64,000 nt of DNA from Falsiroseomonas stagni DSM 19981 (GTDB lineage: Bacteria > Pseudomonadota > Alphaproteobacteria > Acetobacterales > Acetobacteraceae): NCBI RefSeq assembly GCF_900114315.1, contig NZ_FOSQ01000002.1, forward strand, positions 558,001 to 622,000. Reading direction: 5' to 3'. Positions within the stretch are counted from its first letter, which is position 1. Each line of letters begins with the position of its first letter. Below the pieces are notes generated by a model. That model searched no databases. It worked only from the letters and a program-made list of their open reading frames with translations, and was not told the DNA's origin. Below, piece by piece: positions 32,701 to 59,556 of this stretch. Made by a program: the position numbers and the translations under genes.

Positions 32701-33284
32701 GCCTCATCGGGGCGGCCGGCCAGACCGGCTACGCCGCCGCCAATGCCGCGCTCGATGCCTTCGTCGGCTGGCGTCGCGCCCAGGGCCTGCCGGCGCAATC
32801 CATCCTCTGGGGCCGCTGGGCTGAGGTCGGGATGGCCGCAGCACTCGACAGCGCCCGCTCCACCCGCATCTCCGCCCGCGGCCTGCTGCCGATGGCGCCC
32901 GAACGCGCCCTGGCGGCACTGGATTCCGCAATCCTGTCCGGCGAAGCCGCCGTGATGATCGCCGCCTTCGACTGGGCCCGCTTCGCGGAAACCGCCCCGC
33001 CCGCCTTCCTGCCGCTTCTGCCGGCCGTCGCCGCCGCCGATGGCCCGCTGCGCGACCAGGTGCAGGACATCCTCCGCCAGATCCTGGGCGAGGTGCCGCC
33101 CCCGGGCCGCGCGCTGGTCGCCTGCGGGCTCGACAGCCTGATGGCCATGGATCTCCGCAACCGCATCAATCGCCGCTTCGGCACGGCGCTCGGCCTCGCG
33201 GACCTGCTGGGCGGCACCGATGCGGAGGGCCTGGCCGCGCGGATCGAGGCCGAGGCGGAGGAGACGGAGGTGCTGACGCTGTGA
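29739..33284 (+). CDS. PKS-D: module 5, KS-DH-KR-ACP
   Basis: This 1181-residue AT-less module starts at an ATG overlapping the PKS-C stop (ATGA). Residues 1-28 (DRMREAVRTIQALRRRVDEL) form a coiled-coil docking segment. The KS (28-440) has Cys202, HGTGT and NIGH. After a short linker with little AT remnant comes a DH (470-728) with an intact HRVQGRVVVP motif (His512) and HPALLDA. The KR (865-1085) has GGFGGIG, LFGSVAS and YAAAN, so both Ser and Tyr are present. The ACP (Ser near 1132, GLDSL) ends the protein without a clear acidic tail. The unit it adds should be an alpha,beta-alkene. It feeds an NRPS that carries a TubC-type docking domain, and the malonyl unit must be supplied by an acyltransferase acting in trans. 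Confidence 0.93.
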   Translation: MTLPPEDRMREAVRTIQALRRRVDELAAARNTPVAVIGMACRFPGAGTPDALWHLLAEGRDAIGPIPADRWDSDAWHSPDPDQPGRIAFREAGFIGDVDAFDAARFGIAAREAAGMDPQHRLLLELAWQALEAAALQPDALGGTRAGIFLGLNAGDHLQAVMTDPARLGTHALAGAVASLAAGRIAYALGLNGPALVVDTACSSSLVAAHLAVQSLRARECDMALAGGAHLMLAPQVSVALSRARMMAPDGRCKTFDASADGFGQGEGGGMVVLKRLADAEAAGDPVLAVIRGSALNQDGRSAGITAPSLGAQQAVIRAALADAGLAPADIDAIEAHGTGTALGDPVELHALAAVFGQDRRRALRVGSLKTNIGHTAAAAGVAGLIKAVLMLDRGAVPPSLHFRRMNPHVDLGKAPIEVPTTMVAEAPQRVGVSGFGFSGTNAHLVLEAAPTLPARRAALPPTPLKRQVFPRLRAALPETALFPGRVIESPAAARQVEAVLDLALLPWLADHRVQGRVVVPGAVMIALLLAAAPPGTTALADIAFAEPVVLEAAPVRLVALGQPDGTLAISSRAGTGWLTHATARLAVPAAPLALSCAPPGNWDARPAWVAHLAALGIDIGPAFQGIARIARGETTTATIDALPEIPGAPFHPALLDAVLQAAGGTLPADPVLPIGIARLDLHGPLAGALSVIAQRRGDAIDLLASADTPIASIHGLAIHRLAEASATPTLAALSWQPAAAPAPGTPATALDIAAGGANLAEALALAQRHLATATPIAFVTRGATPPVADPGQALLHGMATALAAERPELRARAIDLAPDAPPALLTAELAGDGAEPSVALRAGGRFVPRLTRLEPRPGQVRLSGTVLITGGFGGIGRPMARWALERGADAVLLIGRRPAEAPFAQARILACDIAAPDATARIAAALQPLPPLHMIIHAAGVLDDAMIEDQAPSRLQRVIAPKLLGAQALHALPARPEHVLLFGSVASLIGAAGQTGYAAANAALDAFVGWRRAQGLPAQSILWGRWAEVGMAAALDSARSTRISARGLLPMAPERALAALDSAILSGEAAVMIAAFDWARFAETAPPAFLPLLPAVAAADGPLRDQVQDILRQILGEVPPPGRALVACGLDSLMAMDLRNRINRRFGTALGLADLLGGTDAEGLAARIEAEAEETEVLTL

Positions 33285-36200
33285 CCACCGCCGCCTTCCT
33301 CCAGGACCTGGAACGCCGGGGCGTCAGCCTCTCCGCCAGCGGCGACGAATTGTCGCTGCGCGCACCGCGCGGCGTGCTGACGGAGGCCGACCGCGACCGC
33401 CTCCGCGCCGAGAAACCCGCCATCCTCGCGCTGCTGCGCGGCGAAGACGCCACGCCGGATGCACCCTTCCCGCTGACGGAGATCCAGCAGGCCTACCTGG
33501 TCGGCCGCTCCGCCGAACTCGAACTCGGCCGTGTCGGCTGCCACGCCTATCGCGAATTCGAAGCGGCGGACCTCGACCTCGACCGCCTCGAAGCCGCCTG
33601 GAACCGCCTGGTGGCGCGCCACCCGATGCTGCGCGCGGTGGTGACGCCGGATGGCCTGCAGCGCGTCCTGCCCGATGTGCCGCCCTGCCGGATCGAACGC
33701 ATCGACCTCCGCCAGGCGCCGGATCCCGGCGCCGCCCTGGCGGCGGAGCGGGAGGCGCGGTCGCACCACGTCTTCGACCCCGCGCAATGGCCGCTATTCT
33801 CCCTGATGGCGGCGCTGCTGCCGGATGGCCGCGTGCGGCTCGGCGTCGGCATCGACCTGCTGGTGGCGGATGCGGCGGCGCTGGTGACGCTGTTCCGGGA
33901 CTGGGGCGCGCTCTACGCGGCGCCGGAGAGAGACCTGCCCCCCCTGCCGGCACGTTTCGCCGACCATGCGCGGCGCCTGCCACAGCCGACCGATCGCGAC
34001 CGCGCGTACTGGCAGGCGCGGCTGGCGGATTTCCCGCCCGGGCCCGACCTGCCGTTGCAGCCGCTGGCCGGCCCGCCGCGCTTCACCCGGCGCACGCACC
34101 GCATCCCCGCGCCCGACTGGCAGGCCCTGCGCGCCGCGGCGGCCGCGCGCGGCATCACCGCCTCGATCCTGCTCGCCACCGCCTTGGCCGATATCCTGGC
34201 GGGCTGGAGCCGTCGCGCACGCTTCGCCGTCACCCTCACGCAATTCGCCGCGCCGCCGGGGATGGAAGGCGTGGTCGGCGACTTCACCTCGACCATCCTG
34301 CTGGAAGCCGACGTCACCCCGCGCCGCTTCGAGGATCGCGCCCGCGCCTTGCAGGCCCGCCTGGCCGCCGATCTCGACCATGCCTCGATGAGCGGCGTGG
34401 CGGTGCTGCGGGAAATCCGCCGACTGCGGCCCGAAGCCGCCGCCGTCCCCGTGGTCTTCACCTCCACCATCGGCCATCCGTCGCTCGGCGGCGGCACCTC
34501 GCCCCTCGCCTGGCTGGGCGAGACGGTCTTCGCCGTGACGCAGACGCCGCAGGTGGTCCTGGACCATCATGTGTTCGAGGAAGCCGGCGCGCTCATCCTC
34601 GGCTGGGACGCGGTCGAAGCCGCCTTTCCGCCCGGCGTCCTCGACGCGATGGTCGGCGCCCATGCCGACCTGCTCTCCGCCCTGCTGACGGAGGCGGGCT
34701 GGGACCGGGATGCCAGCGCCTGCCGTCCGGCCCAGCCGCGTGCCGCCCTTCGCCCCGCCGCCACCCCACGCCTGCTGCACGCGGCGCTGGAGGAAGCGGC
34801 CCGCGCCATGCCCGACCGGCCCGCCGTGATCGATGGCGACGTCACGCTGGACCACGCCACGCTGCACGCCGCCGCCGGCCATCTCGCGGCCCGCCTCCAC
34901 GCGCGCCTCGGGGAGAAGACGCGGGACCGCCTGGTGGCGATCGTGCTGCCCAAGGGCTGGCGCCAGATCGTGGCCGTCCTGGCCGTGCTGAAGGCCGGCG
35001 CCGCCTACCTGCCCGTGGACCCGGCCCTGCCGGCCGAGCGCCGCCGCCACTTGATCGCGCAGGGGGAAGCCCTTCCCCTCGATGACGCGGCAGAGATCGA
35101 CACAGCCCTGGCCGCCGCGCGACAGGGGCCGCCGCCTGCGCTGCCGGCGGTGGAGGACCCGTCCCGCCTCGCCTATGTCATCTACACCTCCGGCTCCACC
35201 GGCCAGCCCAAGGGCGTGATGATCGAACACCAGGCCGCCATCGCGACGGTGGCGGAGATCAACCGCCGCTGGGCCATCGGAGCGGAGGATCGCGCCTTCG
35301 GTCTGTCCGCGCTGGGCTTCGATCTCTCGGTCTGGGACATCTTCGGCCCGCTGGCGGAGGGCGGCGCGCTGGTGCTGCCGCCGCCGGACGCCGCCCGCGA
35401 TCCGGCCGCCTGGTCGGCCCTGCTGGCCCGCCATCGCGTCACGGTCTGGAACAGCGTGCCGGCGCTGATGGCGATGCAGATGGAACACGGCCTGCCGCCG
35501 GGCCACGCGCTGCGCCTGGTGATGATGTCCGGCGACTGGGTGCCGATCGAACTCGTCCGCCGCCTGCGGGATGCGATGCCGGGCACCGCGCTGGTCGCTC
35601 TGGGCGGCGCCACGGAAGCGGCGATCTGGTCCAATGCGCATGAGGTCGCTTCACTCGATCCCGCCTGGCCCAGCATCCCCTACGGCCTGCCGCTCGCCGG
35701 CCAGGTGCTGCATGTCGTCGATGCCCGCGGCGCGCCATGCCCGGACTGGGTGACGGGCGAGATCGAGATCGCCGGCGCCGGCCTCGCCCGCGGCTATTGG
35801 CGCGATCCGGTCCGCACGGCGGAGCGCTTCGTCACCAACCCCTTCACCGGCGAACGCCGCTACCGCACCGGTGACCTCGGCCGTTTCCGCCGGCATGGCG
35901 ACGGCGCCGGCCCCACGCCCATCGAATTCCTCGGCCGCGAGGATTTCCAGGTGAAGATCCAGGGCTACCGGATCGAACTCGGGGAGATCGAGGCAGCCCT
36001 CGAAACCCATCCCGAAGTGGCCGCTGCCTGCGCGACGGTGGTGGATGGCCCCGGCGGCAAGGCGCTGCATGCCTTCGTGGCGCCGCGGCGCGAATCCTGG
36101 GAGCGTGCCCGCCGCGTGCTGTCCCGCCCCGGGCTCCGGCGCGGCGACGCGCCCCGCATCCCCCTGCCGCATCGCCCCGATGCCGCCAGCTACGACGCAC

Positions 36201-37015
36201 GCCGCAGCGTCCGCCGCTTCACCGACGCCGCCCTGCCCCGCGCGGCGGTCGATGCCCTGCTGGCCGCCGCCGGCATGCCCGTCACCCTCCTCCCGCGCCG
36301 CGTGGAGGGCACGCCCCCCGCCGCCTGGCCCCGCATCGAGATTCCCGATCCCGCCACCGCCCGCGTCGCCGAAGCGGCCGCGGCGCTGCTGCTGCTCGAA
36401 GCGCCGCATGGGCGAGGCGCATTGCTCGCCGCCGGCCAGGCCGGGCAGCGCATGATGGTGGCGGCGGAAGCCCTCGGCCTCGGCCTCTGCGCCATCGGCC
36501 TGCTGCGCCGGGATGGCGCGCCCGTGCTGCACGCCTTCGCCTGCGGGATCCCGGCGACGGAGGTCTCGGGCGTCGATCTCGCCGGCGCGCTGCGCGAACA
36601 CTGCGCCGCGGTCCTGCCCGCCTACATGGTGCCGCGGCACCTGCACATGCTGGAAGCGCTGCCGCTCAGCGGCAATGGCAAGGTGGACCGCAGCGCGCTC
36701 AAGCCGCCGGCCAGCGATGCCGCCGCCCCCGCCGGCGGGCTGGAAGCCGGCGTCGCGGCGCTGGTCGCCGAAGCGCTGGGCCAGCCCGTGCATCCGCAGC
36801 GAAACCTCTTCGATGCCGGCGCGACCTCCCTGCACATGGTGCGCCTGCAACGCCTGCTGGCGGACCGCATGGGCAGCCGCCTGACGGTGGTGGATCTGTT
36901 CCGCCTGCCGAGCATCAGCGCCCTTGCCGCCGCGCTGGCCGGCGACGCGGCCGAAGGCGCCGTGCAGGGCGGGCTGGACCGCGCCGCCCGACGTCGCGCG
37001 GCCCAGCGCCGATGA
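33281..37015 (+). CDS. NRPS-E: TubC docking-Cy-A(oxidase-like insert)-PCP, predicted cysteine heterocyclising module
   Basis: This 1244-residue NRPS begins at a GTG overlapping the PKS-D stop. Residues 1-58 match the TubC_N docking fold. The next domain (62-480) is a heterocyclisation domain: the condensation HHxxxDG is replaced by D192-LLVA-D197, and the family opening LTEIQQAYLVGR is present. The A domain (from about 490) has YTSGSTGQPKG. Its binding pocket, as I read it (D, L, W, N, M, S, then I, W), resembles the known cysteine code, so Cys is predicted. Between the late A-domain motifs, residues about 935-1105 form an insert like the flavin oxidases of thiazole-making NRPSs. It carries RRSVRRF (974-980) and GQAGQ...GLGLCAIG (1053-1075) but is too short. 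The PCP serine is Ser1183 (GATSL). It should add a thiazoline, oxidised to thiazole if the oxidase works. Confidence 0.93.
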   Translation: MTTAAFLQDLERRGVSLSASGDELSLRAPRGVLTEADRDRLRAEKPAILALLRGEDATPDAPFPLTEIQQAYLVGRSAELELGRVGCHAYREFEAADLDLDRLEAAWNRLVARHPMLRAVVTPDGLQRVLPDVPPCRIERIDLRQAPDPGAALAAEREARSHHVFDPAQWPLFSLMAALLPDGRVRLGVGIDLLVADAAALVTLFRDWGALYAAPERDLPPLPARFADHARRLPQPTDRDRAYWQARLADFPPGPDLPLQPLAGPPRFTRRTHRIPAPDWQALRAAAAARGITASILLATALADILAGWSRRARFAVTLTQFAAPPGMEGVVGDFTSTILLEADVTPRRFEDRARALQARLAADLDHASMSGVAVLREIRRLRPEAAAVPVVFTSTIGHPSLGGGTSPLAWLGETVFAVTQTPQVVLDHHVFEEAGALILGWDAVEAAFPPGVLDAMVGAHADLLSALLTEAGWDRDASACRPAQPRAALRPAATPRLLHAALEEAARAMPDRPAVIDGDVTLDHATLHAAAGHLAARLHARLGEKTRDRLVAIVLPKGWRQIVAVLAVLKAGAAYLPVDPALPAERRRHLIAQGEALPLDDAAEIDTALAAARQGPPPALPAVEDPSRLAYVIYTSGSTGQPKGVMIEHQAAIATVAEINRRWAIGAEDRAFGLSALGFDLSVWDIFGPLAEGGALVLPPPDAARDPAAWSALLARHRVTVWNSVPALMAMQMEHGLPPGHALRLVMMSGDWVPIELVRRLRDAMPGTALVALGGATEAAIWSNAHEVASLDPAWPSIPYGLPLAGQVLHVVDARGAPCPDWVTGEIEIAGAGLARGYWRDPVRTAERFVTNPFTGERRYRTGDLGRFRRHGDGAGPTPIEFLGREDFQVKIQGYRIELGEIEAALETHPEVAAACATVVDGPGGKALHAFVAPRRESWERARRVLSRPGLRRGDAPRIPLPHRPDAASYDARRSVRRFTDAALPRAAVDALLAAAGMPVTLLPRRVEGTPPAAWPRIEIPDPATARVAEAAAALLLLEAPHGRGALLAAGQAGQRMMVAAEALGLGLCAIGLLRRDGAPVLHAFACGIPATEVSGVDLAGALREHCAAVLPAYMVPRHLHMLEALPLSGNGKVDRSALKPPASDAAAPAGGLEAGVAALVAEALGQPVHPQRNLFDAGATSLHMVRLQRLLADRMGSRLTVVDLFRLPSISALAAALAGDAAEGAVQGGLDRAARRRAAQRR

Positions 37016-48700: not shown

Positions 48701-51700
48701 CGGCACCAATGCCCATGCGGTGCTGGAAGCGCCCCCAGCGCCCGCGCCCGCGCCGCCTCCCCCGGCCAGGCCCCTGCTGCTGCTCACGGCCCGCAGCGAG
48801 GCCGGGCTGCGCCGCCTGGTCGCCGCCTGCCAGGCCCGGCTGGCGGCAGGCGCCGATTTCGCCGCCCTCTGCGCCAGCGCCGCCCATGGCCGCGCGCGCC
48901 ACCCCTGGTGGGTGCTGGTCGAGATGCCGGAGGCCCTGGCCACCGTCACGCCGAGCAACGCGCCCCTGCCCGACCTGCCCCCGCAATCCGGCGCCCGCAT
49001 CGCCCTGCCGCTGACGCCCTGGGACCGCCAGCGCCACTGGGCCACCCCCGCCCGCGCCGCCCTGCCCGCCAGCGTCCACCCCCTGCTCGGCCGCCGCCTG
49101 CGCTCCCAGCGCGGTGAACGGCTCTTCGAGACCGAACTCACCTCCACGCGCCCCGCCTGGCTGGCGGACCACGCCCTGGCCGGCCGCGTCGTCCTGCCCG
49201 CCGCCGCGATGGTGGAGATGCTGCTCTCCGCCCTGCCGCCCGATGCCCCCGCGGTGCTGGAGGATGTGACCTTCGACCGCCTCCTCGCCCCCGCCGAGAC
49301 ACCAGTGGTGCAGACGATGCATGACGGCGGCGCCCTCACCCTCGCCGCCGCCGCCGAGGATCCTGACGCGCCCTTCATCCCCATCGCGACGGCCCGTGCC
49401 GGCACCCTGGCCCCCGGACCGGCACCGTCCCTGGCGGAAGCCCGCGCCCGTTGCCCGCGCGGCATGGATGTCGGCGCGCTCTACGCCCGCTTCGCCGAAG
49501 CCGGCCTGGCCTACGGCCCTGCCTTCCAGGGCCTCCGCGCCCTCTGGGCCGGGGATGGGGAGGCCGTCGCCGAACTCGGGGACAGCCAGCCCGGCTACCG
49601 CCTCGATCCGCGGGTGCTGGATGCCGCCTGGCAGGCCCTGGCCGCGACACTGCCGGAAGGCAGCCGGGACGCGCTGGTGCCGAAGGGCCTTGCGCGCTTC
49701 ACCCTGTTGGGCGGCACGCCCCGCTTCGCCGTCCTCCGCCTCCCCGCGCCCGACCGTGCGGAGGTCGCGCTGCTGGACGCCAGCGGCGCCCCCGTCGCGC
49801 TGTGCGAGGGGCTGGCCCTCGCCGTCTCCCGCCAGGGCGCCGTGGTGCAGGAAATCGCCTGGCGGGCCCTGCCGGACGGCACGGAAACCCCCGCCTGGAT
49901 CGACCTGCGGGCGGAGGCCGATGCCGTCGCCGCGACCTGGCGCGTGCTGGAAGCCGCCCGCGCCGCACCCGCCCGCCTCGCGGTGCTGGCCACGCTGGAT
50001 GCCAGCCCGGCCCAGGCGGCGCTGGCCGGGTTGATGCCGACGCTGGCGCTGGAACACCCCGAACTCCGCCCCGTGCTGCTGGACCTGCCCGCCGGCGCCG
50101 TGCCGCCCCCGATCCCGGCCGAAGGCCCGGCCGTGCTGACCCTGCGCGATGGCGCCCTGCTGGCGCGGGAATTGGCGTCCCGCCCCACCCCACCCCCGCC
50201 ACCCGCGCCCTTCGTGCTGGCCCGCGGCGCCGATGCGTCGCTGGAGGCGCTGCGCTGGGACCGCATGGCGGCGCCGTCGGCCACCCCCGGCCAGGTGGTG
50301 ATCGAGGTCGCCGCCACCGGCATCAATTTCCGCGACGTGATGAACCTGCTCGGCGTGTATCCCGGCGATGGCGGGGCCCCGGGTGTCGAATGCGCGGGCC
50401 GCGTTGTCGCGGTCGGCGATGGTGTCGGCGGCTTCGCGCCCGGCGATGCCGTGCTGGCCATCGCGCCCGGCTGCTTCGCCAGCCATGTCAGCGCCGATGC
50501 GCGCCTCCTCCGCCCGCTGCCGGACGGCATGGGCTTCGCGGAGGCCGCCGCCCAGCCTGTCGCCTGGCTCACCGCGCGCCTCGCTCTGCTCGAAGTCGCG
50601 CGCCTCACCCGCGGCCAGCGGGTGCTGGTCCATGCCGCGACGGGCGGCGTCGGCCTCGCGGCAATCGCCGTCGCGCGGGCCGCCGGCGCCGTGGTGGTCG
50701 CCACCGCCGGCAGCGCGGAAAAGCGCGCCCGCCTCGCCGCCCTCGGCATCACGGAGGTGCATGACAGCCGCGCCCTCGGCTTCGCCGCCGCCGCGCCGGT
50801 CGATGTCGTGCTGAACAGCCTGACCGGCCCCGCCATCCCCGCGGGCCTCGGCCTGCTGAAGCCCGGCGGCGTCTTCCTTGAGATCGGCAAGGCGGAGATC
50901 TGGGACACCGACCGTGTCGACGCGATCCGCCCCGACATCCGCTACCGCCCCGTGGCGCTCGACAGCCTGATCCTTTCCAACCCCGCCCGTGTCGGCGACA
51001 TGCTGGCCAGCCTCTGCGACGATTTGTCGCAGGGCCTGGCGCCCCTGCCCGTGGAACGCTGGCCCTTCGCGGAGGTGACGCCCGCCCTCCGCCGCATCCA
51101 GGCCGCGCGCCATATCGGCAAGCTCGTGCTGGCGCGCAGCCTGTTCCGCGCCGATGCGACCTACCTCCTCACCGGCGGCACCGGCGCGCTGGGCCGGCAC
51201 CTGGCCCGCTGGCTGGTGGCGAACGGCGCCCGCCACCTGGTGCTGCTGGCCCGCAATCCCGCCGACGTCGCGATCGAGGGTGCCACCATCCGCAGCATCG
51301 CCGCCGACATCGCCGATCCCGCCGCGCTGCGCCGCGCACTCTCCGGCCTGCGGCACCCGCTGCGCGGCATCTTCCACCTGGCCGGCGCGCTGCATGACGG
51401 GACGGCGGCGCGGCTGGACCGCGAACGCCTGGCCGCCGCCTTCCCGGCCAAGCTGGCGGGGGCGGAGGCGCTGGACCGCATCGCCGCCGCCCATCCCGTC
51501 GAGCATTTCGTGATGTTCGGATCGCTCGCCGCCCTGCATGGCTCCGCCGGCCAGGCCAACTACGCCGCCGCCAATGCCGCCCTCGCCGCCATCGCGCAGC
51601 GCCGCCGCGCCCGGGGCGAACCGGCGCTGCTGGTGCATTGGGGGGCCTGGCAGGGGGACGGCATGGCACAAGGCCGTGCGGGCCTGTCGCCCGACACCGC

Positions 51701-52178
51701 CCTGGCCGCGCTGGATTCCGCGCTCTCCGCCGGGCTGGCGGAGGTCGCGATCTCCGCTGCCGCCGCGGGTGTCCCGCCGCCCCGCCTGGCGTTGCAGGAG
51801 AAGCTGGCCGCCGCCATCGGCAGCGCGAAGCGGGATGCGCTGGCGGATGCGGTGGCGGAGGCGATCAGCCGCATCCTCGGCCTCGGTGACACGCCGCTGG
51901 ACCGCGCGCGGCCCCTGGCCGAACTCGGCCTCGACAGCCTGATGGCCGTCGAACTCCGCAACACCCTCTCCGCCGCCATCGGCAAGCCGCTGCGCGCCTC
52001 GCTCGTCTTCGACCATCCGAGCGCGGAGGCGCTGGTCGCGCATCTCGCCGCCGAACTGGGCCTGGGCGTCACCCCTCCTCCCGCCGAAGCCCCACCGCCC
52101 GCCCCGCCCCCTGCCGACGACCCCGACGACGACGCCCTGCTGCTGCTGGAACGGAAGCTCGCCCATGCCGGGTACTGA
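42747..52178 (+). CDS. PKS-G: bimodular, KS-DH-cMT-KR-ACP / KS-DH-ER-KR-ACP (modules 7-8)
   Basis: This 3143-residue protein overlaps PKS-F by ATGA and has an N-terminal coil (QVKEQAVRLLQRMQERLDA). Module 7: KS (33-435, Cys191); AT-less linker ending in HPFDRQRFW; DH (557-798, HRVRG....P); C-methyltransferase (VLEIGAGTG near 950); KR (1240-1460) with His1379 for Tyr and Ser1383 for Asn, probably inactive; ACP (Ser1533). Module 8: KS (1587-1998, Cys1748); AT-less linker ending in TPWDRQRHW; DH (2110-2368, HALAG....P); ER (2489-2795, TGGVGLA); KR (2804-3015, GGTGALG, intact YAAAN); ACP (Ser3064). The C-terminal tail DDALLLLERKLAHAG is a likely docking tail. Module 7 should leave an alpha-methyl beta-keto unit unless reduced in trans. 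Module 8 should give a fully saturated unit. Neither module has its own AT. Confidence 0.94.
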   Translation: MSTDRQVKEQAVRLLQRMQERLDASEARFRAPIAIIGLGCRFPGAEGPDAFWSLLAEGRNAVRPVPPDRWAAPATGGTAQGGFLDGIDLFDAAFFGIAPREAAAMDPQQRLVLEAAWRALEHSGIAPDRLEGTRTGVYLGCCTADYARIGDPAAMSEEGYAATGGAPGVAAGRLAYLLGLQGPALVVDTACSSSLVATHLAVQALRAGECSLALSGGVNLTLLPWGAATLDRLHMLSPDGQCRAFDEAANGFVRAEGCGVLVLKRLADALADSDRVLAVIRGSAVNQDGRSAGLTAPNGPAQEAVIRAALDNAGLAPADVDAIEAHGTGTTLGDPIEMQALRGVFGGARPAPLRVGSVKTNIGHAEGAAGVAGLVKAALMLRHQAVVPSLHFTRLNPHIDLGDAAIEIPVATVPTPLRRVGVSSFGFSGTNAHLILEAAPEAPPRASTPAEAPRLLLSARTPDALRAMAAETQAKLRDGAFTFADACHTAAVARPRLPWWIIADSAEDLAAAEPSDALMPDLPAPPGRRVDLPGHPFDRQRFWLDEAEMLPGRRLPQAGPAPVFEAHLMPGARLLADHRVRGTALLPAADMLERLRTAAEASGQGNALADITLDRALPVAVPRLVQVVAGDELGLFAQAGTAWDRHATARATTADALPDQKLPALHATCTESLDPNAFHAWLAEAGIDFGPHYRCIAALWRGQGQALAQLSAAPFPVLLDAALRTAGAIAFGSSGAPRLPAGAARYARAARAPGAESWAHAVITGDSGGVTTADIRLLDADGTVLALLEGLRLAAAPDAWRGWCHAIAWTPRPDPRARIAALTAGLEDPARRLALEAAATRHARAAIAAVKAEEVVPRHRRLFDHLARLAARPLPDAIPLPGAAPEAALLDRCGAALPDVLRGLADPVKLLFEGDGAEQVYRDSPAYAAANQVLAVLAEAAAPPTGRLRVLEIGAGTGATAAAVLAALDPDRVEYWFTDIGRSLVERARGRIPAQRFAVLDIEDDPLAQGLPAAGFDLVIAANVLHATRDLEAALRHVARVLAPDGRLLLLETDPEGLPGDPTPGGWVDLVFGLTEGWWRFADPALRHDHPLLSRPAWLALLARLGLEATAIPDLPGNTLLVARPAAEAVTLADPGGPAADRCATLLARLQALGPEQRRITLRTRGALGADPAGAALWGMMRTLRQERPELDIRLLDGDGDPPPALLLAEPELVLRDGALLVPRLGRAADGPPAIIDPDGAILVTGAFGGLGRFASEWLVRRGARRLVLAGRRIPEDLAWMQALRDAGATVTLEACDLADAGARAALIARLPALRGIVHAAGTLADATLAQASAADFATTLAPKFDAARDLDAAFPDLDVFLLFSSAVALFGQAGQAAHVAASCAIDALAATRRARGGRATSLGFGLWRDIGSQAGNAALIDRLAAQGLGTIPSEAGEALLDWALSTPEAASAILPIDRPRFLASFEGMRPPSSLRGWQAPKPAAPARAAMAEAPPAAALADLIAGEAAAVLGLSPGQALDRRANLFELGLDSLMAVELRNRLQSRLGRGALSATLLFDHSSVAALAAHLGDAPAAARATTRATASDDPIAIIGMGCRFPAGGEDPDAFWQALAEGRDGIIPRPEGRSLGPQDIDGPQAGYLPDVAGFDPLAFGIAPREAPFMDPQHRLLLEVAWEALEDALLPPDTLAGSNTGVFMGLCNYDYAQLAAHAEGGEAFAGTGGAPSIAAGRIAYLLGLNGPALVLDTACSSSLVALHLAVQAIRRGECGMALAGGVNLALGSGTTSALQGLSMLAPDARCKAFDARADGFVRADGCGVVVLKRLSEATAAGDRILAIIRGTAVNQDGRSSGLTAPSGAAQEAVIRAALADAGLPPDAIDAIEAHGTGTALGDPIEMHALRNVFGPSRDRPLMVGSVKTNIGHAEAAAGIAGLIKAVQMLRHGQVPPSLHFGALNPHIDLGGADLRVPTSLAPAALRHVGVSSFGFSGTNAHAVLEAPPAPAPAPPPPARPLLLLTARSEAGLRRLVAACQARLAAGADFAALCASAAHGRARHPWWVLVEMPEALATVTPSNAPLPDLPPQSGARIALPLTPWDRQRHWATPARAALPASVHPLLGRRLRSQRGERLFETELTSTRPAWLADHALAGRVVLPAAAMVEMLLSALPPDAPAVLEDVTFDRLLAPAETPVVQTMHDGGALTLAAAAEDPDAPFIPIATARAGTLAPGPAPSLAEARARCPRGMDVGALYARFAEAGLAYGPAFQGLRALWAGDGEAVAELGDSQPGYRLDPRVLDAAWQALAATLPEGSRDALVPKGLARFTLLGGTPRFAVLRLPAPDRAEVALLDASGAPVALCEGLALAVSRQGAVVQEIAWRALPDGTETPAWIDLRAEADAVAATWRVLEAARAAPARLAVLATLDASPAQAALAGLMPTLALEHPELRPVLLDLPAGAVPPPIPAEGPAVLTLRDGALLARELASRPTPPPPPAPFVLARGADASLEALRWDRMAAPSATPGQVVIEVAATGINFRDVMNLLGVYPGDGGAPGVECAGRVVAVGDGVGGFAPGDAVLAIAPGCFASHVSADARLLRPLPDGMGFAEAAAQPVAWLTARLALLEVARLTRGQRVLVHAATGGVGLAAIAVARAAGAVVVATAGSAEKRARLAALGITEVHDSRALGFAAAAPVDVVLNSLTGPAIPAGLGLLKPGGVFLEIGKAEIWDTDRVDAIRPDIRYRPVALDSLILSNPARVGDMLASLCDDLSQGLAPLPVERWPFAEVTPALRRIQAARHIGKLVLARSLFRADATYLLTGGTGALGRHLARWLVANGARHLVLLARNPADVAIEGATIRSIAADIADPAALRRALSGLRHPLRGIFHLAGALHDGTAARLDRERLAAAFPAKLAGAEALDRIAAAHPVEHFVMFGSLAALHGSAGQANYAAANAALAAIAQRRRARGEPALLVHWGAWQGDGMAQGRAGLSPDTALAALDSALSAGLAEVAISAAAAGVPPPRLALQEKLAAAIGSAKRDALADAVAEAISRILGLGDTPLDRARPLAELGLDSLMAVELRNTLSAAIGKPLRASLVFDHPSAEALVAHLAAELGLGVTPPPAEAPPPAPPPADDPDDDALLLLERKLAHAGY

Positions 52179-55100
52179 CCCCACCGCGCGGGAGGCGAAT
52201 GCCGTCCGCCGCGCCCTCGCGATGATCCAGGACCTGGAAGCGAAGCTGGACGCCGCCGGCCGCGCCGCGCGCGAACCCGTCGCGGTGATCGGCATCGGCT
52301 GCCGCTTCCCCGGCGGCGGCGAAGGCCCGGATGCCTATTGGCGGCTGCTGTCCACCGCGCGCGACGCCGTGACGGAGGTGCCGGCGGATCGCTGGGACGC
52401 CACCGCCCTCTTCGATGCCGATCCGGACGCCCCCGGCCGCGCCAGCAGCCGCTGGGGCGCCTTCCTCGACGGCATCGATCGCTTCGACGCCGCCCTCTTC
52501 GGCATCTCCCGGCGAGAGGCGGAGGCCATGGACCCGCAGCATCGCCTGCTGCTGGAGAATGCCTGGGCGGCGCTGGAGGATGCCGGCATCGCGCCGGATC
52601 GCCTCTCGGGCCAGGCGCTGGGGGTCTTCGTTGGCCTCAGCACCGCGGATTACGGCACGCTGCTCGGCCGGCAGAGGGATCTCGGCTGGATCGACGCCTA
52701 TGCCAGCCTCGGCAACGCGCCCTCCATCGCCGCGGGGCGCATCGCCTATGCGCTCGGCACCCAGGGGCCGACGATGGTGGTGGACACGGCCTGTTCGTCG
52801 TCGCTGGTGGCCACGCATCTCGCGGTGCGCGCGCTGCGCAGCGGGGAATGCCGCGTGGCGCTGGCGGCGGGGGTGAATGCGACTTTGTCGCCCGAACTCA
52901 CCATCGGCTTCTCCAAGGCGCACATGCTGGCCGGCGATGGGCGCTGCAAGACCTTCGATGCGGCCGCCGACGGCTATGTTCGCGGCGAGGGCTGCGGCGT
53001 GGTCGTTCTCAAGCGGCTGTCGGATGCGCGGGCGGCCGGTGATCCTGTGCTGGCGGTGATCCATGGCAGCGCGGTGAACCAGGATGGTCGCAGCGCCGGC
53101 CTCACCGCCCCTTCCGGCCCCGCGCAGGAAGCCGTGCTCCGCGCCGCCCTCGCCGATGCGGCGCTGGCGCCATCGGACATCGACGCCATCGAGGCCCATG
53201 GCACCGGCACCGCCCTTGGCGATCCCATCGAGATGCATGCGCTCCGCAGCGTCTTCGCCGGGGATCGCGCCCGGCCGCTCTCCGTCGGCTCGGCGAAGAC
53301 CAATATCGGCCATACCGAGGCCGCCGCCGGCATCGCCGGCCTCATCAAGGCCGTCCTCATGCTCCGCCACCAGGCGGTCGCCCCCAGCCTCCACTTCACC
53401 CGCCTCAACCCGCATATCGACCTGACCGGCGCCCGCATCGAAGTGCCGACGCGGCTCGAACCCGCGCCGCTGCGCCACATCGGCGTCAGCTCCTTCGGCT
53501 TCTCCGGCACCAACGCCCATATCGTCCTCGGCGCCGCGCCCGAGACGGCGACAGCCGCCGACCCCCGCCCCGCCCATCTCCTGCCGATCAGCGCCCGCGA
53601 CCCCGCCGCGCTGACGGCGCTGGTCGCCCGCTGGCAGGACGCGCTCGCCGCGCCCGGCGCCGACCTGCCGGCGCTGGCCCGCACCGCCGCCACCGGCCGC
53701 GCCGCCCTGCCCCGCCGCATCGCCATCACCGCCCGCGACCCCGCCACCGCCGCCGACGCACTCCCCAAAGCCGAAGCCACCACCGCCGGCCGCCCCCGCA
53801 TCGCCTTCCTCGTCACCGGCCAGGGCTCCGCCTTCCCCGGCATGGCGCGCGGCCTCGCCGAGACCGCCCCCGTCTTCCGCCGCGTCCTCGATCGCTGCGA
53901 CGCCGTCATGGGCCTGCCCGCACCCCTGTCCCGCCTGTTCGAGGACGGTGCCGCCCTCGCCCGCGCCGATATCGCCCAGCCCGCCCTCTTCGCCCTCTCC
54001 GCCGGCCTCGGCGCGCTCTGGCGCAGCTGGGGCGTGGAGCCGGTGGCGCTGCTCGGCCACAGCCTCGGCGAATACGCCGCCGCCCACCTCGCCGGTGTGC
54101 TGACCTTGGAGGACGCCGCCCGCCTCGTCGCGGCCCGCGGTCGCCTGACGCAGGCGCTGCCCGCCGGCGGCGCCATGGCCGCGGTGCTCGGCCCCGACCC
54201 GCACAGGGTGCTCGCCCGCCACCCTGCCCTCGAACTCGCCGGCGAGAACGGGCCGGAGGCCATCACCCTCGCCGGCCCGCAGGCCGCCATCGCCGCGCTG
54301 CTCGACGACACGATGCTCGCCGCCTCAGGCCTGGACGCAAGGCCGCTCGCCGTCTCCCACGCCTTCCATTCCCGCCTGCTGGACCCGATGCTGGACGCGC
54401 TGGAAGCCGAGGCGCGGTCCATCCCGCACAACCCGCCCGCCATCCCCGTCATCGGCAACCTCGCCGGCACCGTGGTGCCGCGCCATGACGCCGCCTATTG
54501 GCGCGCCCATGCCCGCCAGCCCGTGCGCTTCGCGCAGGGGTTGGCCACGCTGGCGGCGATGGGCGTGACGCACGCCGTCGAACTCGGCGCCATGCCGGTG
54601 CTTGCGGGGCTCGCCCGCAATGCCCTGCCGGCGCTGGTCACGCTGCCCTCGCTCGCCCGCGCGCGCCCGGGGCAGGATGGCGCGACGCTCGGCTGGACCA
54701 CCGCGATGCAGGCCGGCGCCCGCCTCTGGCAGGATGGCGCGGAGATCGACTGGGCCGCCTTCCACCAGCCCTACCCCACCCGCACCACATCGGCGCCGAC
54801 CTACCCGTTCCAGCGCCAGCGCTACTGGTTCGCCCAGGCAGCCGAGGCCCTGCTCGGCGAGACCACTGACCTCGCCACCGGCACCCGCCTGGCCCGCGCC
54901 CGCTTCGACACGCAGCGGCTGCCCTTCCTCGCCGACCATGTCGTCATGGGGGATCTCATCGTCCCCGGCGCCAGCCATGTCGTCGCGATGCTCGCGGCCA
55001 GCGGCGGCACCGCGCTGCGCGACATCGTCTTCGCCGCCCCCTTCAAGCTGCCCGCCACAGGCTGCGCCGTGCAGGTGCTGGTGGAGGGCGACCAGGTCTC

Positions 55101-58100
55101 CCTCCACGCCGATGCCGGCGGCCATTGGACGCGCCACGCCGCCGCCACCCTCGCCCCGACCCCCTCCGCACCCGCGCCCCAGGATCCCGCCGCCCTCGCC
55201 GACCGCGGGAGGGAGGAGGAAGGCGGCGCCGCTGCGCTCCACGCCATGCTGGCGGAACGCGGCATCACCCTCGGCCCCACCTTCCGCGGCATCCATCGGG
55301 TGTTCCGCGGCCAGGGGGAGGCGATCGTCGATGTCGCCCTGCCCGAGGGCACGCCCGCCATCGCGCCGCTGCACCCCGCGCTGCTGGATGCCTGCTTCCA
55401 GGCGCTGGGCGCCACCTTCAGCGGCCAGGGCGAGTCCGGCGCCTTCCTGCCCCTCGCCATCGATGCCGTCGCGCTCCACAAGCCCCATGCCGGCCCCGTC
55501 CGCGCCTGGGTCCGCGCCCGTCCCGCCACGGGCGGCGGCGTCGCCACCGGCGATGTCGAGATCATGGACCCCGATGGCAACCCGGTGATGACCGTCACCG
55601 GCCTGACCATCCGCCGCATCGAAGCCGGCCCCGCCTCCGATCCCGCCGACCGCTGGACCTATGAGGTGGAGTGGGTCGCCCAGTCGCCGGAATGGCGCGT
55701 CCCGCCCCTCGGCGAGGCCGCCGCCCGCGCCGGCGCGGCCACCGCCCCGACCGAGGAAGCCGGCTTCGCGGAGGCGCTGGAATCCCTGGCCGCCGGCTAC
55801 GCCGCCAGGGCACACGCGCAGGTTCCCGCCGCCGCCGTCACCCCCGGCCTCGCCCGCCTGCACGAGCATCTGCCCCGGATGGCCGAGGGCGCCGCGCCCG
55901 ATCCCAACGCACTCGCCGCCGACCTCGCCGCGCGGCTTGGCGACCGCATGGAAATCGCCCTCGCCCGCCGCGCCGGCGCAGCACTGCCGGCGGTGCTGCG
56001 CGGGGAAGCGGATGCGCTGGCCGCGATCTTCGGCGATGGCGGCTCCATCTACGCCGACCCGCCCTTCGCGCGGATGCTGAACGCCATGCTCGTCGCCGCC
56101 GTGGCGCAAGCGGTCGCGGCGCTGCCGGAAGGCCGCAAGCTCCGCCTGCTGGAAATCGGCGCCGGCACCGGGGCGCTGGTCGCGGCGCTGCACCAGGCCG
56201 GGCTGGCGGATCGCCTGGCCATCACCTTCACCGACATTTCCGCCGGTTTCCTCGATGCAGCGGCGGCGCGGTTCGGTGCGGCCATCGCCGCCGCGCTGCC
56301 GCTCGACATCGAACGCGCGCCGGACTCGCAGGGCTTCGCGCCGGGCAGCTTCGACATGGTCGTGGCCAGCAACGTCCTGCACGCCACACGGGACATCCGC
56401 GACAGCCTGCGCCACGCCGCGTCCCTGCTGGCGCCGGGCGGCGCGCTGCTGCTGCTGGAAGCCTGCCGGCGCAGCAACTGGGCCGATCTGGTCTTCGGCT
56501 CCACACCCGGCTGGTGGCGCTTCGGGGATACGGGCCTGCGCCCCGATCACCCGCTGCTGCCCCCGGATGCATGGCAGACCGTCCTGGCCGGGTTCTTCGA
56601 AGCCGTCGACCTGGTTCCCGCCCCGGGCGGCGCGCAGGCCGTCGCCATCGCACGCAGGCCCCGGCCCACCCGCCCGATCCGCTCGATCGAGCCCAATGGC
56701 ACCGATGCGCTCACCTTCGCCACCCGGGCCCTCGCTGCCGCGCAGGATGCCGCCCGCGAAACACAGCCCCCCGCGCTGCACCTGGTGACGCGCGGGGCGC
56801 AGCCCGCCGCCGGTGCCGTCACGCAACCCGCCCAGGCCGCCCTCATCGGCCTCGGCCGCGTCATCGCGCTGGAGCATCCCGAACTCGACGCCCGCCTGCT
56901 GGACGTCCCCGCCGGCGACACGCCGCCGCCCCCGCCAGAGGGCGAACGCGAAGCCGCCTGGCGGGATGGCGCCTGGCATGTGCCACGGCTGAAGCGCGTC
57001 ACGCTGCCGCCCGGGCCGGGCTTCGTCACATCCGGCACGCACCTCGTCACCGGCGGCCTTGGCGGCCTCGGCCCGCTGCTGGCGGCCTGGCTGCTGGACC
57101 GCGGCGCCGAACGCGTGGTGCTGATGGCCCGCCGCGCGCATGAGGGCGAGCCCCTGCCGGCGGGATGCACCGTGATGCAAGGCGATGTCGCGGATGCAGC
57201 CGCCGTCCGGCGCATCATCGCCGCCATCGATGCGGAACTGCCCCCGCTTCGCGGCGTCTTCCACCTGGCCGGCAGCCTCAGCGACGGCGCCATCCTGCGA
57301 CTGTCGCGCGACGACCTCGCCAAGGTCTTCGCCGCCAAGGTCGATGGCGCCCTCAACCTGGAAGCCGCGACCATCGACCGGCCGCTTGATGCCTTCGTGC
57401 TGTTCGGCTCCTCCGCGGGTCTCCTCGGCAATGCGGGCCAGGGCGCGCATGCCGCGGCCAATGCCGTGCTCGGTGCCCTGGCCCATGCCCGCCAGGCGCG
57501 CGGCCTGCCCGGCCTCTGCATCGATTGGGGCGCCTGGGGGGAAGCCGGTGCCGTCGCCGCCACCCCGGCCGGCGCGCGCCTGACCGCCGCGGGCGCGGCG
57601 CTGATGGCCCCGAAGGACGCGCTGCAGGCACTCGGCCGGGCCATCGCCGCCGGCAAGCCGCGCCTGCTGGTGGCCGCCATCGACTGGCCGCGTTTCCTGG
57701 CGGGCTATGGCGCGGGCATCCCCGGCTTTTTCGCCGCTGTCGCGCCGCCACGCGCCGCACCACCCCGCCCCCGCCAGGCCACGACCGGCGCCGATCCCCG
57801 TGCCAGCCGCGCCGCACTTGGCGCCTTCATCGCCGCCGAAGCCGCCCGCGTGCTGCGCGTCGGCACCGGCGAGGCCCTGGCGCCCGATCTTCCCCTCAGC
57901 GATGCGGGGCTCGACAGCCTCATGGCCCTCGAACTCCGCAAGGGGCTCGGCGATGGCCTCGGCCTGACGCTGCCGGCCACCCTGCTGTTCAGCTACCCGA
58001 CGGTGGAGGCGCTGGAAGCGCATCTGGCCGGCCTGCTCGGCCTGGACGCGCCGGCGCCGGAATCCGCGCCCCGCCTGCCCCCGCCCCCCCCGGACGCGGA

Positions 58101-58197
58101 GATCGAGGCCAGCGTCATGCGCATGTCGGAGGATGAGATGATGGCGCTCATCGCGCAGGAATTCAGCCTGGCGATGGAGGAGGGCGGCCGTGGCTGA
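52165..58197 (+). CDS. PKS-H: module 9, KS-AT-DH-cMT-KR-ACP
   Basis: This 2010-residue last PKS overlaps PKS-G by 14 bases and has an N-terminal coil (about 10-36). KS (36-450, Cys210); AT (545-819, GHSLGE Ser633, malonyl-type HAFH); DH (892-1152, HVVMG....P and HPALLDA); C-methyltransferase (LLEIGAGTG near 1329); KR (1622-1845) with GGLGGLG and AAAN but His1762 in place of Tyr; ACP (Ser1918, GLDSL). No thioesterase or reductase domain follows. Instead the C-terminus is a proline-rich linker plus an acidic helix (MSEDEMMALIAQEF) like the tails that hand on to another PKS in this line. From the late KS to the post-AT linker it is nearly identical to PKS-C. It should add an alpha-methyl beta-keto unit. 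How the chain leaves is not evident. Confidence 0.94.
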   Translation: MPGTDPTAREANAVRRALAMIQDLEAKLDAAGRAAREPVAVIGIGCRFPGGGEGPDAYWRLLSTARDAVTEVPADRWDATALFDADPDAPGRASSRWGAFLDGIDRFDAALFGISRREAEAMDPQHRLLLENAWAALEDAGIAPDRLSGQALGVFVGLSTADYGTLLGRQRDLGWIDAYASLGNAPSIAAGRIAYALGTQGPTMVVDTACSSSLVATHLAVRALRSGECRVALAAGVNATLSPELTIGFSKAHMLAGDGRCKTFDAAADGYVRGEGCGVVVLKRLSDARAAGDPVLAVIHGSAVNQDGRSAGLTAPSGPAQEAVLRAALADAALAPSDIDAIEAHGTGTALGDPIEMHALRSVFAGDRARPLSVGSAKTNIGHTEAAAGIAGLIKAVLMLRHQAVAPSLHFTRLNPHIDLTGARIEVPTRLEPAPLRHIGVSSFGFSGTNAHIVLGAAPETATAADPRPAHLLPISARDPAALTALVARWQDALAAPGADLPALARTAATGRAALPRRIAITARDPATAADALPKAEATTAGRPRIAFLVTGQGSAFPGMARGLAETAPVFRRVLDRCDAVMGLPAPLSRLFEDGAALARADIAQPALFALSAGLGALWRSWGVEPVALLGHSLGEYAAAHLAGVLTLEDAARLVAARGRLTQALPAGGAMAAVLGPDPHRVLARHPALELAGENGPEAITLAGPQAAIAALLDDTMLAASGLDARPLAVSHAFHSRLLDPMLDALEAEARSIPHNPPAIPVIGNLAGTVVPRHDAAYWRAHARQPVRFAQGLATLAAMGVTHAVELGAMPVLAGLARNALPALVTLPSLARARPGQDGATLGWTTAMQAGARLWQDGAEIDWAAFHQPYPTRTTSAPTYPFQRQRYWFAQAAEALLGETTDLATGTRLARARFDTQRLPFLADHVVMGDLIVPGASHVVAMLAASGGTALRDIVFAAPFKLPATGCAVQVLVEGDQVSLHADAGGHWTRHAAATLAPTPSAPAPQDPAALADRGREEEGGAAALHAMLAERGITLGPTFRGIHRVFRGQGEAIVDVALPEGTPAIAPLHPALLDACFQALGATFSGQGESGAFLPLAIDAVALHKPHAGPVRAWVRARPATGGGVATGDVEIMDPDGNPVMTVTGLTIRRIEAGPASDPADRWTYEVEWVAQSPEWRVPPLGEAAARAGAATAPTEEAGFAEALESLAAGYAARAHAQVPAAAVTPGLARLHEHLPRMAEGAAPDPNALAADLAARLGDRMEIALARRAGAALPAVLRGEADALAAIFGDGGSIYADPPFARMLNAMLVAAVAQAVAALPEGRKLRLLEIGAGTGALVAALHQAGLADRLAITFTDISAGFLDAAAARFGAAIAAALPLDIERAPDSQGFAPGSFDMVVASNVLHATRDIRDSLRHAASLLAPGGALLLLEACRRSNWADLVFGSTPGWWRFGDTGLRPDHPLLPPDAWQTVLAGFFEAVDLVPAPGGAQAVAIARRPRPTRPIRSIEPNGTDALTFATRALAAAQDAARETQPPALHLVTRGAQPAAGAVTQPAQAALIGLGRVIALEHPELDARLLDVPAGDTPPPPPEGEREAAWRDGAWHVPRLKRVTLPPGPGFVTSGTHLVTGGLGGLGPLLAAWLLDRGAERVVLMARRAHEGEPLPAGCTVMQGDVADAAAVRRIIAAIDAELPPLRGVFHLAGSLSDGAILRLSRDDLAKVFAAKVDGALNLEAATIDRPLDAFVLFGSSAGLLGNAGQGAHAAANAVLGALAHARQARGLPGLCIDWGAWGEAGAVAATPAGARLTAAGAALMAPKDALQALGRAIAAGKPRLLVAAIDWPRFLAGYGAGIPGFFAAVAPPRAAPPRPRQATTGADPRASRAALGAFIAAEAARVLRVGTGEALAPDLPLSDAGLDSLMALELRKGLGDGLGLTLPATLLFSYPTVEALEAHLAGLLGLDAPAPESAPRLPPPPPDAEIEASVMRMSEDEMMALIAQEFSLAMEEGGRG
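52990..54819 (+). repeat. KS-AT duplication, copy 2 (partner at 24391-26220)
   Basis: This is the PKS-H copy of the ungapped, near-identical KS-AT block described for PKS-C. The active-site GHSLGE codons and HAFH motif coincide at the same offset. The flanking domains (methyltransferase after copy 1, DH after copy 2) are unrelated, which puts the exchange borders inside the KS and just after the AT. Confidence 0.92.
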
Positions 58198-58663
58198 CCT
58201 TTCCACCGACAGTCTCGGCCGACTGCTCGGCGCGCTGGCCAGCCGCCCGGGCGTGCTGCCGAAATACCGCTATGCCTCCGCCGGCACGCTCTACCCCGTG
58301 CAGGCCTATCTCTCCCTGCCCGCGCCGGGCGTGCCCGGCCTGCCGCCGGGCTGCCACTACCATGACCCGGAGGCCCACGCCCTCGCCCCCGTGTCGGACC
58401 ACCCCGCGGGTGACGTCCCCCTGCTGCTGCTCATCGCCCAGATGGCGGCGATCGAGCCCGTCTATGGCGCCCTTTCGGAGGATTTCTGCATGCTCGAGGC
58501 TGGCTACATGACGGCGGCGCTGGAAGACGCGGCCGCCGAGGCGGGCCTGGCGCTGGAGGATGCCGGCGATCCCGCCGGCTGGGACCGTCCCGGACTCACG
58601 ACCGCGCTGGCGCTCGATGCCACCCACGCCCCCCTCCTCGCGCTGCGGATCTCGGCGCGATGA
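58190..58663 (+). CDS. stand-alone azoline-oxidase fragment (nitroreductase-fold)
   Basis: This 157-residue protein starts at a GTG overlapping the PKS-H stop by 8 bases and overlaps the next gene by 4. It matches the middle of flavin-dependent thiazoline oxidase domains of NRPSs: LGRLLGAL, then LPKYRYASAGTLYPVQAY (with the Lys-Tyr pair important in McbC/SagB-type azoline dehydrogenases), then CHYHDPEAHAL, IEPVYG and DFCMLEAGYM. It lacks the N-terminal RRSxRxF flavin-phosphate motif and the late GLGLCxIG motif. Those two are exactly what the insert in the NRPS-E A domain keeps. My reading is that the two pieces form one FMN site together. Alternatives are a decayed oxidase or a protein that pairs with an oxidase elsewhere. 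Confidence 0.8.
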   Translation: MADLSTDSLGRLLGALASRPGVLPKYRYASAGTLYPVQAYLSLPAPGVPGLPPGCHYHDPEAHALAPVSDHPAGDVPLLLLIAQMAAIEPVYGALSEDFCMLEAGYMTAALEDAAAEAGLALEDAGDPAGWDRPGLTTALALDATHAPLLALRISAR

Positions 58664-59556
58664 CCGCCACCATCCCCGCCCGCGGCAAGCTGCGCGAAGC
58701 GCTCGACTACCTCCTCTGGTTCTACACCCCCTTCAAGCGCATGAGCGCGCGGGACATCTACGAACTCGTCTCCACCCATTCCTTCAGCAAGCGCGGCCTC
58801 TACCTCAACCTCGGCTACTGGCGTGATGCCTCGACGATCGACGAGGCCTGCGAGGCCATGGTGATGCTGGTGGCGGAAAGCGCCGGGATCGGCCCCGGCC
58901 AGGACATCGTCGATGTCGGCTTCGGCTTCGCGGACCAGGACATGCTGTGGATGCAGCGCCTGGCACCGCGGTCCATCACCGGGCTGAACGTCACGACCTC
59001 CCAGGTGCTGACAGGCCAGAAGCGCGTGGCGGAAGCGGGCATGGCAGACCGCATCACGCTCATGGAGGCCTCCGCCACCGCCATGCCGCTGCCCGATGCC
59101 AGCGCGGATGCGGTGCTGGGCGTCGAATGCGCCTTCCACTTCGACACGCGGGAACGTTTCTTCGGGGAGGCGATGCGCGTGCTGCGCCCCGGCGGCCGAA
59201 TCGCCCTCGCCGACGTCATCCGCAACGACCCGGAACCCGCCGGCTTCGGCCGCCGCATGCAGGACTTCAACTGGAAGTTCTTCATGCAGAAATACGCAGT
59301 GCCGGAAGCGAATGCGGATGACCGCGCCAGCTACGCCGCCAAGCTTCGCGCCGCCGGCTTCATCGATGTGGAGGTCCGCTCCATCCGGCACGAAGTCTAT
59401 CCCGGCCTGCACCGCTTCATGGCGACGGATCCGGACATGCTCAAGCGCTTCCACCCCATCGCGCGCATGCCCTACAAGCTGTCGCTGCGCTTCAGCCCTG
59501 ACAAGGTCTACAGCGCCTATGACTACATCCTGGCCACCGGGCGGAAGCCGGGCTGA
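58660..59556 (+). CDS. class I SAM-dependent methyltransferase (EryG/UbiE-like), probable tailoring enzyme
   Basis: This 298-residue protein has a SAM-binding Rossmann core: DVGFGFADQD (about 85-95), then GLNVTTSQV, an acidic residue near LMEASATAMPLPD, and VLRPGGRIALADV. The N-terminal part (FSKRGLYLNLGYWRDASTIDEAC) resembles natural-product O-methyltransferases such as EryG. It is the last gene of the operon, overlapping the oxidase fragment by ATGA. It would most likely methylate a hydroxyl or a carboxyl of the released product, or of a chain still on the line. The second Gly of the usual GxGxG is retained (GFGF). The substrate cannot be read from sequence. Confidence 0.88.
   Translation: MTATIPARGKLREALDYLLWFYTPFKRMSARDIYELVSTHSFSKRGLYLNLGYWRDASTIDEACEAMVMLVAESAGIGPGQDIVDVGFGFADQDMLWMQRLAPRSITGLNVTTSQVLTGQKRVAEAGMADRITLMEASATAMPLPDASADAVLGVECAFHFDTRERFFGEAMRVLRPGGRIALADVIRNDPEPAGFGRRMQDFNWKFFMQKYAVPEANADDRASYAAKLRAAGFIDVEVRSIRHEVYPGLHRFMATDPDMLKRFHPIARMPYKLSLRFSPDKVYSAYDYILATGRKPG

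Follow-up and report, generated by a model that had tools for sequence, protein, structure and literature searches.

The window analysed here is a stretch of 64,000 nucleotides from Falsiroseomonas stagni DSM 19981 (contig NZ_FOSQ01000002.1, positions 558,001 to 622,000 of the forward strand). It contains genes of a hybrid PKS-NRPS assembly line, among them an NRPS whose A domain carries an insert between the A8 and A9 motifs, and a small gene placed between a PKS gene and a methyltransferase gene (Table 1). The DxxxxD motif of the condensation domain and the specificity code of the A domain were read by eye against known codes, and we take them to be Cy-type and Cys-like, respectively. The insert and the small gene are separated by about 21.6 kb and belong to one gene run, which agrees with the spacing of some 21 kb that an initial annotation of this DNA had given for two pieces of one oxidase. 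The motifs and coordinates proposed there for the small ORF were also right when re-read (58190..58663, length of 157 aa): the encoded protein has LPKYRYASAGTLYPVQ from residue 23 and DFCMLEAGYM from residue 98. The same annotation had stated that this protein is devoid of RRSxRxF and GLGLC, and both are indeed absent, with GLALEDAG standing at the position of GLGLC. Both motifs are found in the A-domain insert, from which the KYRYxSAGxLYPVQ segment and the Tyr tip are absent.

Table 1. Features of the NRPS with the A-domain insert and of the small gene with its neighbours (positions within the window).
Feature	Position	Strand	Remark
NRPS: TubC_N docking domain, condensation domain (Cy-type), A domain (Cys-like), PCP; putative lobe-2 insert in the A domain	33281..37015	+	domains from Pfam; Cy and Cys readings by eye
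A-domain LHAFVAP, left flank of the insert	ends 36085	+	
A8-A9 insert, putative oxidase lobe 2	36086..36613	+	left edge approximate
RRSVRRF of lobe 2	36200-36220	+	
GLGLCAIG of lobe 2	36476-36499	+	
A9 motif LPAYMVP, right flank of the insert	starts 36614	+	
PKS module KS-AT-DH-MT-KR-ACP	52165..58197	+	3' end shares 8 bp with the lobe-1 gene
Putative stand-alone lobe 1 of an azoline oxidase, 157 aa	58190..58663	+	start GTG at 58190, stop 58661-58663
SAG loop of lobe 1, KYRYASAGTLYPVQ	58262-58303	+	
Tyr of lobe 1, within PVYG	58457-58468	+	
DFCMLEAGYM of lobe 1	58481-58510	+	
SAM methyltransferase gene	58660..59556	+	ATG overlaps the lobe-1 stop codon (ATGA)

A Pfam search of the 157-aa protein returned no family at E up to 1. 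The NCBIfam SagB model TIGR03605 matched it with an E of 1.2e-8 and 34.7 bits, which is below the curated cut-off of 78.4, and the protein is not assigned to the SagB-type dehydrogenases. In a sequence search of the PDB, the bacillamide thiazoline oxidase BmdC (7ly4-7ly7; PMC8795117) was matched with an E of 6.5e-8, and of 4.4e-14 when a seven-row family profile was used. The ORF is real, and its likeness to oxidases is far above chance. An AF2 model of the protein built from the seven-row alignment (pLDDT 79.5, pTM 0.79) was alpha/beta and nitroreductase-like, with strands and a long central helix; its SAG loop (residues 19-33) was modelled with low confidence (pLDDT under 50). When this model was submitted to Foldseek, BmdC chains were the three best matches (TM by query 0.75-0.79). 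BmdC is the closest solved relative of the small protein in sequence and in predicted fold. The insert matched the Pfam Nitroreductase family weakly (30.2 bits, cut-off 23.5), best at model positions 95-146, and BmdC was only third in its list of PDB matches (E 2.1e-7). On the sequence matches of both pieces, and for the small protein on its modelled fold as well, the two are placed in the NRPS azoline oxidase homology group (BmdC/EpoB/McbC-like). The small protein is referred to below as lobe 1 and the insert as lobe 2.

The FMN of BmdC has been shown to lie between the protomers of a dimer (PMC8795117). In the available part of that description, one protomer holds the FMN by Arg145, Arg146, Ser147, Arg149, Asn236 and Gly294, the other provides the backbone of residues 182-186, and Tyr260 is a conserved active-site residue. 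Alignments indicate that the numbers of the PDB chains are those of the paper plus 2, so that residues 182-186 correspond to the ASAGG of the SAG loop. These positions were located in a MAFFT alignment of 26 rows: nine complete single-lobe Ox domains (five between A8 and A9, and four after A9, by eye behind a PCP), seven lobe-1 rows and ten lobe-2 rows. Outside the alignment are repeats (L001, L011-L013, L015, L033-L035, L063, L064, L067, L071, L082-L085 and L088), an Ox domain after a PCP from Streptomyces (L065), the NRPS-sized L074 and L075, and short or weak matches (L002-L004, L014, L019, L023-L031, L061, L068-L070, L076-L081, L086 and L087).

In the complete Ox domains, Arg149, the Ser of SAG, Asn236, Tyr260, the Cys of GLC and Gly294 were each present in nine of nine rows, and Arg145 and Arg146 were variable. 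All ten lobe-2 rows kept Arg145, Arg149, a Ser or Thr at position 147, the GLC Cys and Gly294. Tyr260 was missing from every one of them and the SAG Ser from nine (the exception is L010); MAFFT placed an Ala-rich stretch of lobe 2 beneath part of the SAG loop. The SAG Ser and Tyr260 were found in 7/7 lobe-1 rows, from which the RRS segment and the GLC Cys were missing without exception. Furthermore, none of the seven had an equivalent of Arg149, and the Asn of the FMN ring was missing from the window protein and its relatives as well. Gly294 was also kept in six of the seven lobe-1 rows, and this residue therefore does not discriminate between the lobes. When the 45 columns conserved in at least eight of the nine complete rows were considered, 23 were kept in lobe 1 only, six in lobe 2 only, seven in both and nine in neither. 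The FMN-ring residue Asn236 is replaced by Thr in six of the ten lobe-2 rows, including the insert of the window. The full set of FMN-binding and catalytic residues is thus in neither polypeptide alone, and the two combined have all of it except Asn236 (Thr).

Each piece retains its own copy of the middle and the end of the fold, which indicates two lobes rather than one lobe halved. The complementarity proposed in the initial annotation is upheld for the motifs; the picture of a single lobe cut in two is replaced by one of two worn lobes. As far as the aligned residues tell, the pieces are complementarily degenerate lobes of a nitroreductase-fold (pseudo)dimer. Projected on the BmdC map (PMC8795117), the FMN-holding arginines and the Ser would be in the insert, and the loop of the partner protomer and Tyr260 would be in the small protein. 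That the partner protomer supplies Tyr260 is suggested by the division of the motifs between the lobes.

A scan of genome contigs with the 157-aa protein yielded six relatives (L005-L010). Lobe 1 is stand-alone and about 85% identical in three Acetobacteraceae (L005-L007, including Roseomonas ponticola and Falsiroseomonas algicola), and it is stand-alone with 56% identity in a Rhodopila MAG (L008) and 51% in a Proteobacteria MAG (L009). A SAM methyltransferase gene directly follows the lobe-1 gene in the window and in L005-L009, and the overlap of 8 bp between the PKS and lobe-1 genes is kept at all six of these loci. A search of 194 relatives, own genome included, gave five matches: a stand-alone gene in G000, G005, G012 and G013, and a frame of 507 aa in G029 that matched only weakly (E 6e-4). 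With the addition of G194 and G195, the genomes of L008 and L009, the stand-alone gene was found in six genomes. The orthologous NRPS has an insert with lobe 2 only in six of six, and these represent three lineages. In G194 and G195, the stand-alone gene and the NRPS are on different contigs, which are collinear with the cluster of the window; their NRPS is 64% identical to that of the window and the next PKS 58-59%. One contig of G195 ends and another begins inside matches to the PKS at 52165-58197, consistent with one broken gene.

Wider searches were carried out at several taxonomic levels. The 157-aa protein found only itself in its own genome (next match E 0.065), and of ten matching records in a plasmid collection none covered 80% of it. 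In 385 genomes of the class, the lobe-1 search gave seven matches and the lobe-2 profile six. The reading of these was confined to NRPS-sized matches, which apart from that in G000 are all complete single-lobe Ox domains (G215, G284, G331, G420 and G426); small frames in G316, G423 and G298 fall outside it. Ten of 398 genomes of the phylum matched the lobe-1 profile. The reading covered L072 and L073, which are complete Ox domains; L075 was assessed by motif hits only, and the matches beyond this reading are L074 and a set of short frames (L076-L081). In a draw of 150 genomes from the family, 26 matched, 25 of them only weakly to the lobe-2 profile (best E 2.7e-8, open frames of 193-439 aa). 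These 25 are presumed to be ordinary nitroreductase-type enzymes. The three sister genomes (G005, G012 and G013) are absent from the matches of this draw. The division into a cis and a trans part is conserved, in three lineages only.

The small gene and the insert are both open and under purifying selection when the window is compared with the three sisters, with dN/dS values (Nei-Gojobori) of 0.18-0.21 and 0.27, respectively. Between distant lineages, the small gene had a dN/dS of 0.30-0.42, and the insert of this first module one of 0.27-0.56. L010 was excluded from the calculation, and among the inserts of a second module found in the sisters (L020-L022, see below) only L020 was included, L021 and L022 being left out. 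Against the module-1 inserts, L020 gave 0.70-0.88, so that this divergence is not clearly constrained at such resolution. These values bear on the possibility that the insert is a vestigial Ox domain, the small protein a leftover or a protein with another role, and the product of the module a thiazoline and not a thiazole. The Thr at Asn236 in the window and the lack of a Pfam family for the small protein would be in keeping with decay, and the second A domain of the window species, which is without the insert of its sisters, makes gain or loss of an oxidase possible in this cluster. However, both parts have remained open under purifying selection, and complementary catalytic residues kept in three lineages are not expected of vestiges. 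Loss of function is therefore an unlikely explanation.

The genome of the window has seven matches to Pfam Nitroreductase at E up to 0.01, of which the contig of the window has just one, the insert. This family model is blind to the 157-aa protein, so other lobe-1-like genes could be missed by it. The six further matches above the cut-off raise the question of whether the small protein pairs with another cellular nitroreductase in place of the A-domain insert. All six lie on other contigs than the window, however, and the stand-alone gene accompanies a lobe-2 insert in all six genomes that have it, which leaves very little room for such a partner.

The two lobes have also been found joined. 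In L010, from a Gemmatimonadetes MAG, the lobe-1 sequence lies within an A8-A9 insert, and the lobe 2 that comes after it has RSSDRDF and GIGLC but no SAG motif. Judging from these motifs, L010 is a fused pseudodimer in one A domain, divided in the same way as the split pair. In a phylogenetic tree, the lobe-1 sequences including L010 formed one group (support 99/98), and the nine lobe-2 rows of split systems formed another (100/100). L010 and the split pair thus have a common lobe-1 clade and motif division, and differ in that the lobes of L010 are fused in one insert. The lobe 2 of L010 had a long branch and no certain position, and the tree did not recover all lobe-2 sequences as one group. 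Three alignments meant to match the other lobe-2 rows with lobe 2 of L010 placed them wholly or mostly on its lobe 1, and an AF2 model of the fused protein, based on an alignment of lobe-1 rows only, did not resolve lobe 2 (pLDDT 48.5, pTM 0.36). Among 200 genomes of the phylum of L010, the two-lobe query was matched at full length only in its own genome, and weakly and in part in three others. The L010 frame (1 to about 2000) encodes a Gemmatimonadetes NRPS, and its genome (G196) has 66 matches to the A-domain query.

The initial annotation had proposed that the insert and its partner form one mixed FMN site. On comparative grounds, this agrees with the BmdC-like division of residues, the co-occurrence in 6/6 genomes and the fused arrangement of L010. 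Alternatively, each lobe could form a homodimer, lobe 2 within a dimeric assembly line and lobe 1 as a separate protein that has some other partner or acts as a scaffold. Proteins of the nitroreductase fold are typically found as dimers or pseudodimers, it is not unexpected that hybrid NRPS-PKS systems dimerise (PMC8795117), and lobe 1 by itself gave a folded model of moderate confidence. A homodimer of lobe 2 would nevertheless be without the Tyr and the KYRYxSAGxLYPVQ segment, one of lobe 1 would be without the FMN-holding arginines and Asn, and L010 fuses the two lobes in a single insert. Separate homodimers are thus regarded as quite improbable. With the two lobes taken as partners, the split probably originated from a homodimeric Ox domain by duplication and complementary loss, with a fused stage like L010, and by a move of lobe 1 to another place, not necessarily in this order.

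The explanation that we prefer, and consider to have a high probability, is that the two lobes constitute a split, pseudodimeric and FMN-dependent thiazoline oxidase (Ox) of the hybrid PKS-NRPS line. In the Cys-like NRPS module, the side chains that bind FMN (RRSxR and those of the GLGLCxIG loop) would come from lobe 2, inserted between A8 and A9, and lobe 1 would lend the SAG-loop backbone and the conserved Tyr across the dimer interface. Most likely, the Cy domain would form a PCP-bound thiazoline. Docking of the small protein on the insert would give one composite FMN site, neither lobe alone having a full active site, and this site would dehydrogenate the thiazoline to a thiazole. As in the family, the FMN is probably reoxidised by oxygen. 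In a dimeric line, each module dimer would probably bind two copies of the small protein. The completion of a cis lobe by one in trans would, if true, be a further Ox architecture, in which a symmetric flavoenzyme with two sites has been reduced to a single composite site made of separately encoded halves. Such an arrangement would also be a small genetic switch between thiazole and thiazoline. For annotators, it would mean that a 157-aa gene without a Pfam family may encode an essential catalytic subunit.

The NRPS Ox domains described in the available part of PMC8795117 are single lobes presumed to form dimers (EpoB, BmdC) or a fused pseudodimer (IndC). BmdC resembles the proposed split pair in its FMN at the protomer interface and in acting on an NRPS-bound thiazoline (PMC8795117). 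It differs in being a trans homodimer whose protomers each have a complete Ox domain and, at the N terminus, an RRE-like domain (PMC8795117), whereas the lobes of the split pair are unequal and encoded apart, and one of them is embedded in an A domain. In the indigoidine synthetase IndC, the Ox domain is likewise between A8 and A9 and is a predicted pseudodimer, but the whole pseudodimer is in one insert (PMC8795117); IndC is set apart here by its description and not by sequence. Both lobes in one A8-A9 insert, as in the IndC type, are not found in the window, where the second lobe is an ORF 21.6 kb away. Ox domains of the EpoB type (rows L057, L059, L062, L066 and L073) share the A8-A9 site and have the combined motifs of both split lobes; they differ in being single complete lobes with all motifs in cis. 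The Ox of EpoB has been described as a shorter insert that is expected to contribute to dimerisation (PMC8795117).

Two other systems were considered and set aside. The cyclodipeptide oxidase AlbA/AlbB is an FMN oxidase of nitroreductase fold that needs a small second subunit and has FMN at the interface (PMC11055893). The analogy was dropped because AlbB is a helical bundle (PMC11055893) and the model of the small protein is alpha/beta; substrate and assembly also differ. In lyngbyapeptin, where a split and a thiazole also occur together, the split concerns a PKS module and the thiazole comes from a diiron enzyme (PMC10127204). The available parts of PMC10434194, PMC10634744 and PMC8309046 contain nothing on a divided Ox domain. 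As the initial annotation had also supposed, no NRPS oxidase split into a cis and a trans lobe was found among the literature matches listed, which is weak evidence of absence given that subscription journals were thinly covered.

A further cis lobe has been found in the three sisters. In G005, G012 and G013, a downstream NRPS also has a lobe-2 insert (L020-L022), which is 54-56% identical over the A8-insert region of the window and keeps Asn236 in all three, and one lobe-1 gene was found per genome. The presence of one lobe-1 gene with two lobe-2 inserts suggests that a single trans lobe may be able to serve two modules or more. The chances are about even that, in the sisters, a single diffusible lobe 1 is a shared subunit that completes two lobe-2 inserts in two NRPS modules. 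If so, one small gene would decide whether two rings are oxidised to thiazoles or stay thiazolines, and modules would gain or lose oxidation by gaining or losing an insert of roughly 150 aa. The orthologous second A domain in the genome of the window (83-87% identical to those of the three sisters) has no insert, and the orthologous A domain in G194 and G195 (70-72% identical) has a methyltransferase insert at that place.

The A8-A9 site of this second NRPS has accordingly been seen in three states: with oxidase lobe 2 (three sisters), with a methyltransferase (L008 and L009) and with nothing (the species of the window). In the window's own genome, the second NRPS (L032:2278-12957) lies on contig C30 just after the window and has a PCP, a thioesterase (TE) and then a methyltransferase behind the TE, likewise in G005 (L035). 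In L008 and L009, by contrast, a methyltransferase of 60-61% identity is located at the A8-A9 site of the A domain. Judged by sequence identity, the methyltransferase domain appears to have moved between these two positions.

With regard to the wider cluster, KS domains occur without a Pfam AT match, at the thresholds used, in the frames at 16832-23668, 29583-33284, 37012-42750 and 42747-52178 of the window and in L032:2278-12957. The window frames with an AT are those at 7980-18197 (one AT, two KS), 23665-29742 and 52165-58197. The assembly line is a mixture of AT-containing and AT-less frames. Near the cluster, a gene for an RND transporter of the AcrB/AcrD type is located on the minus strand (205-3276).
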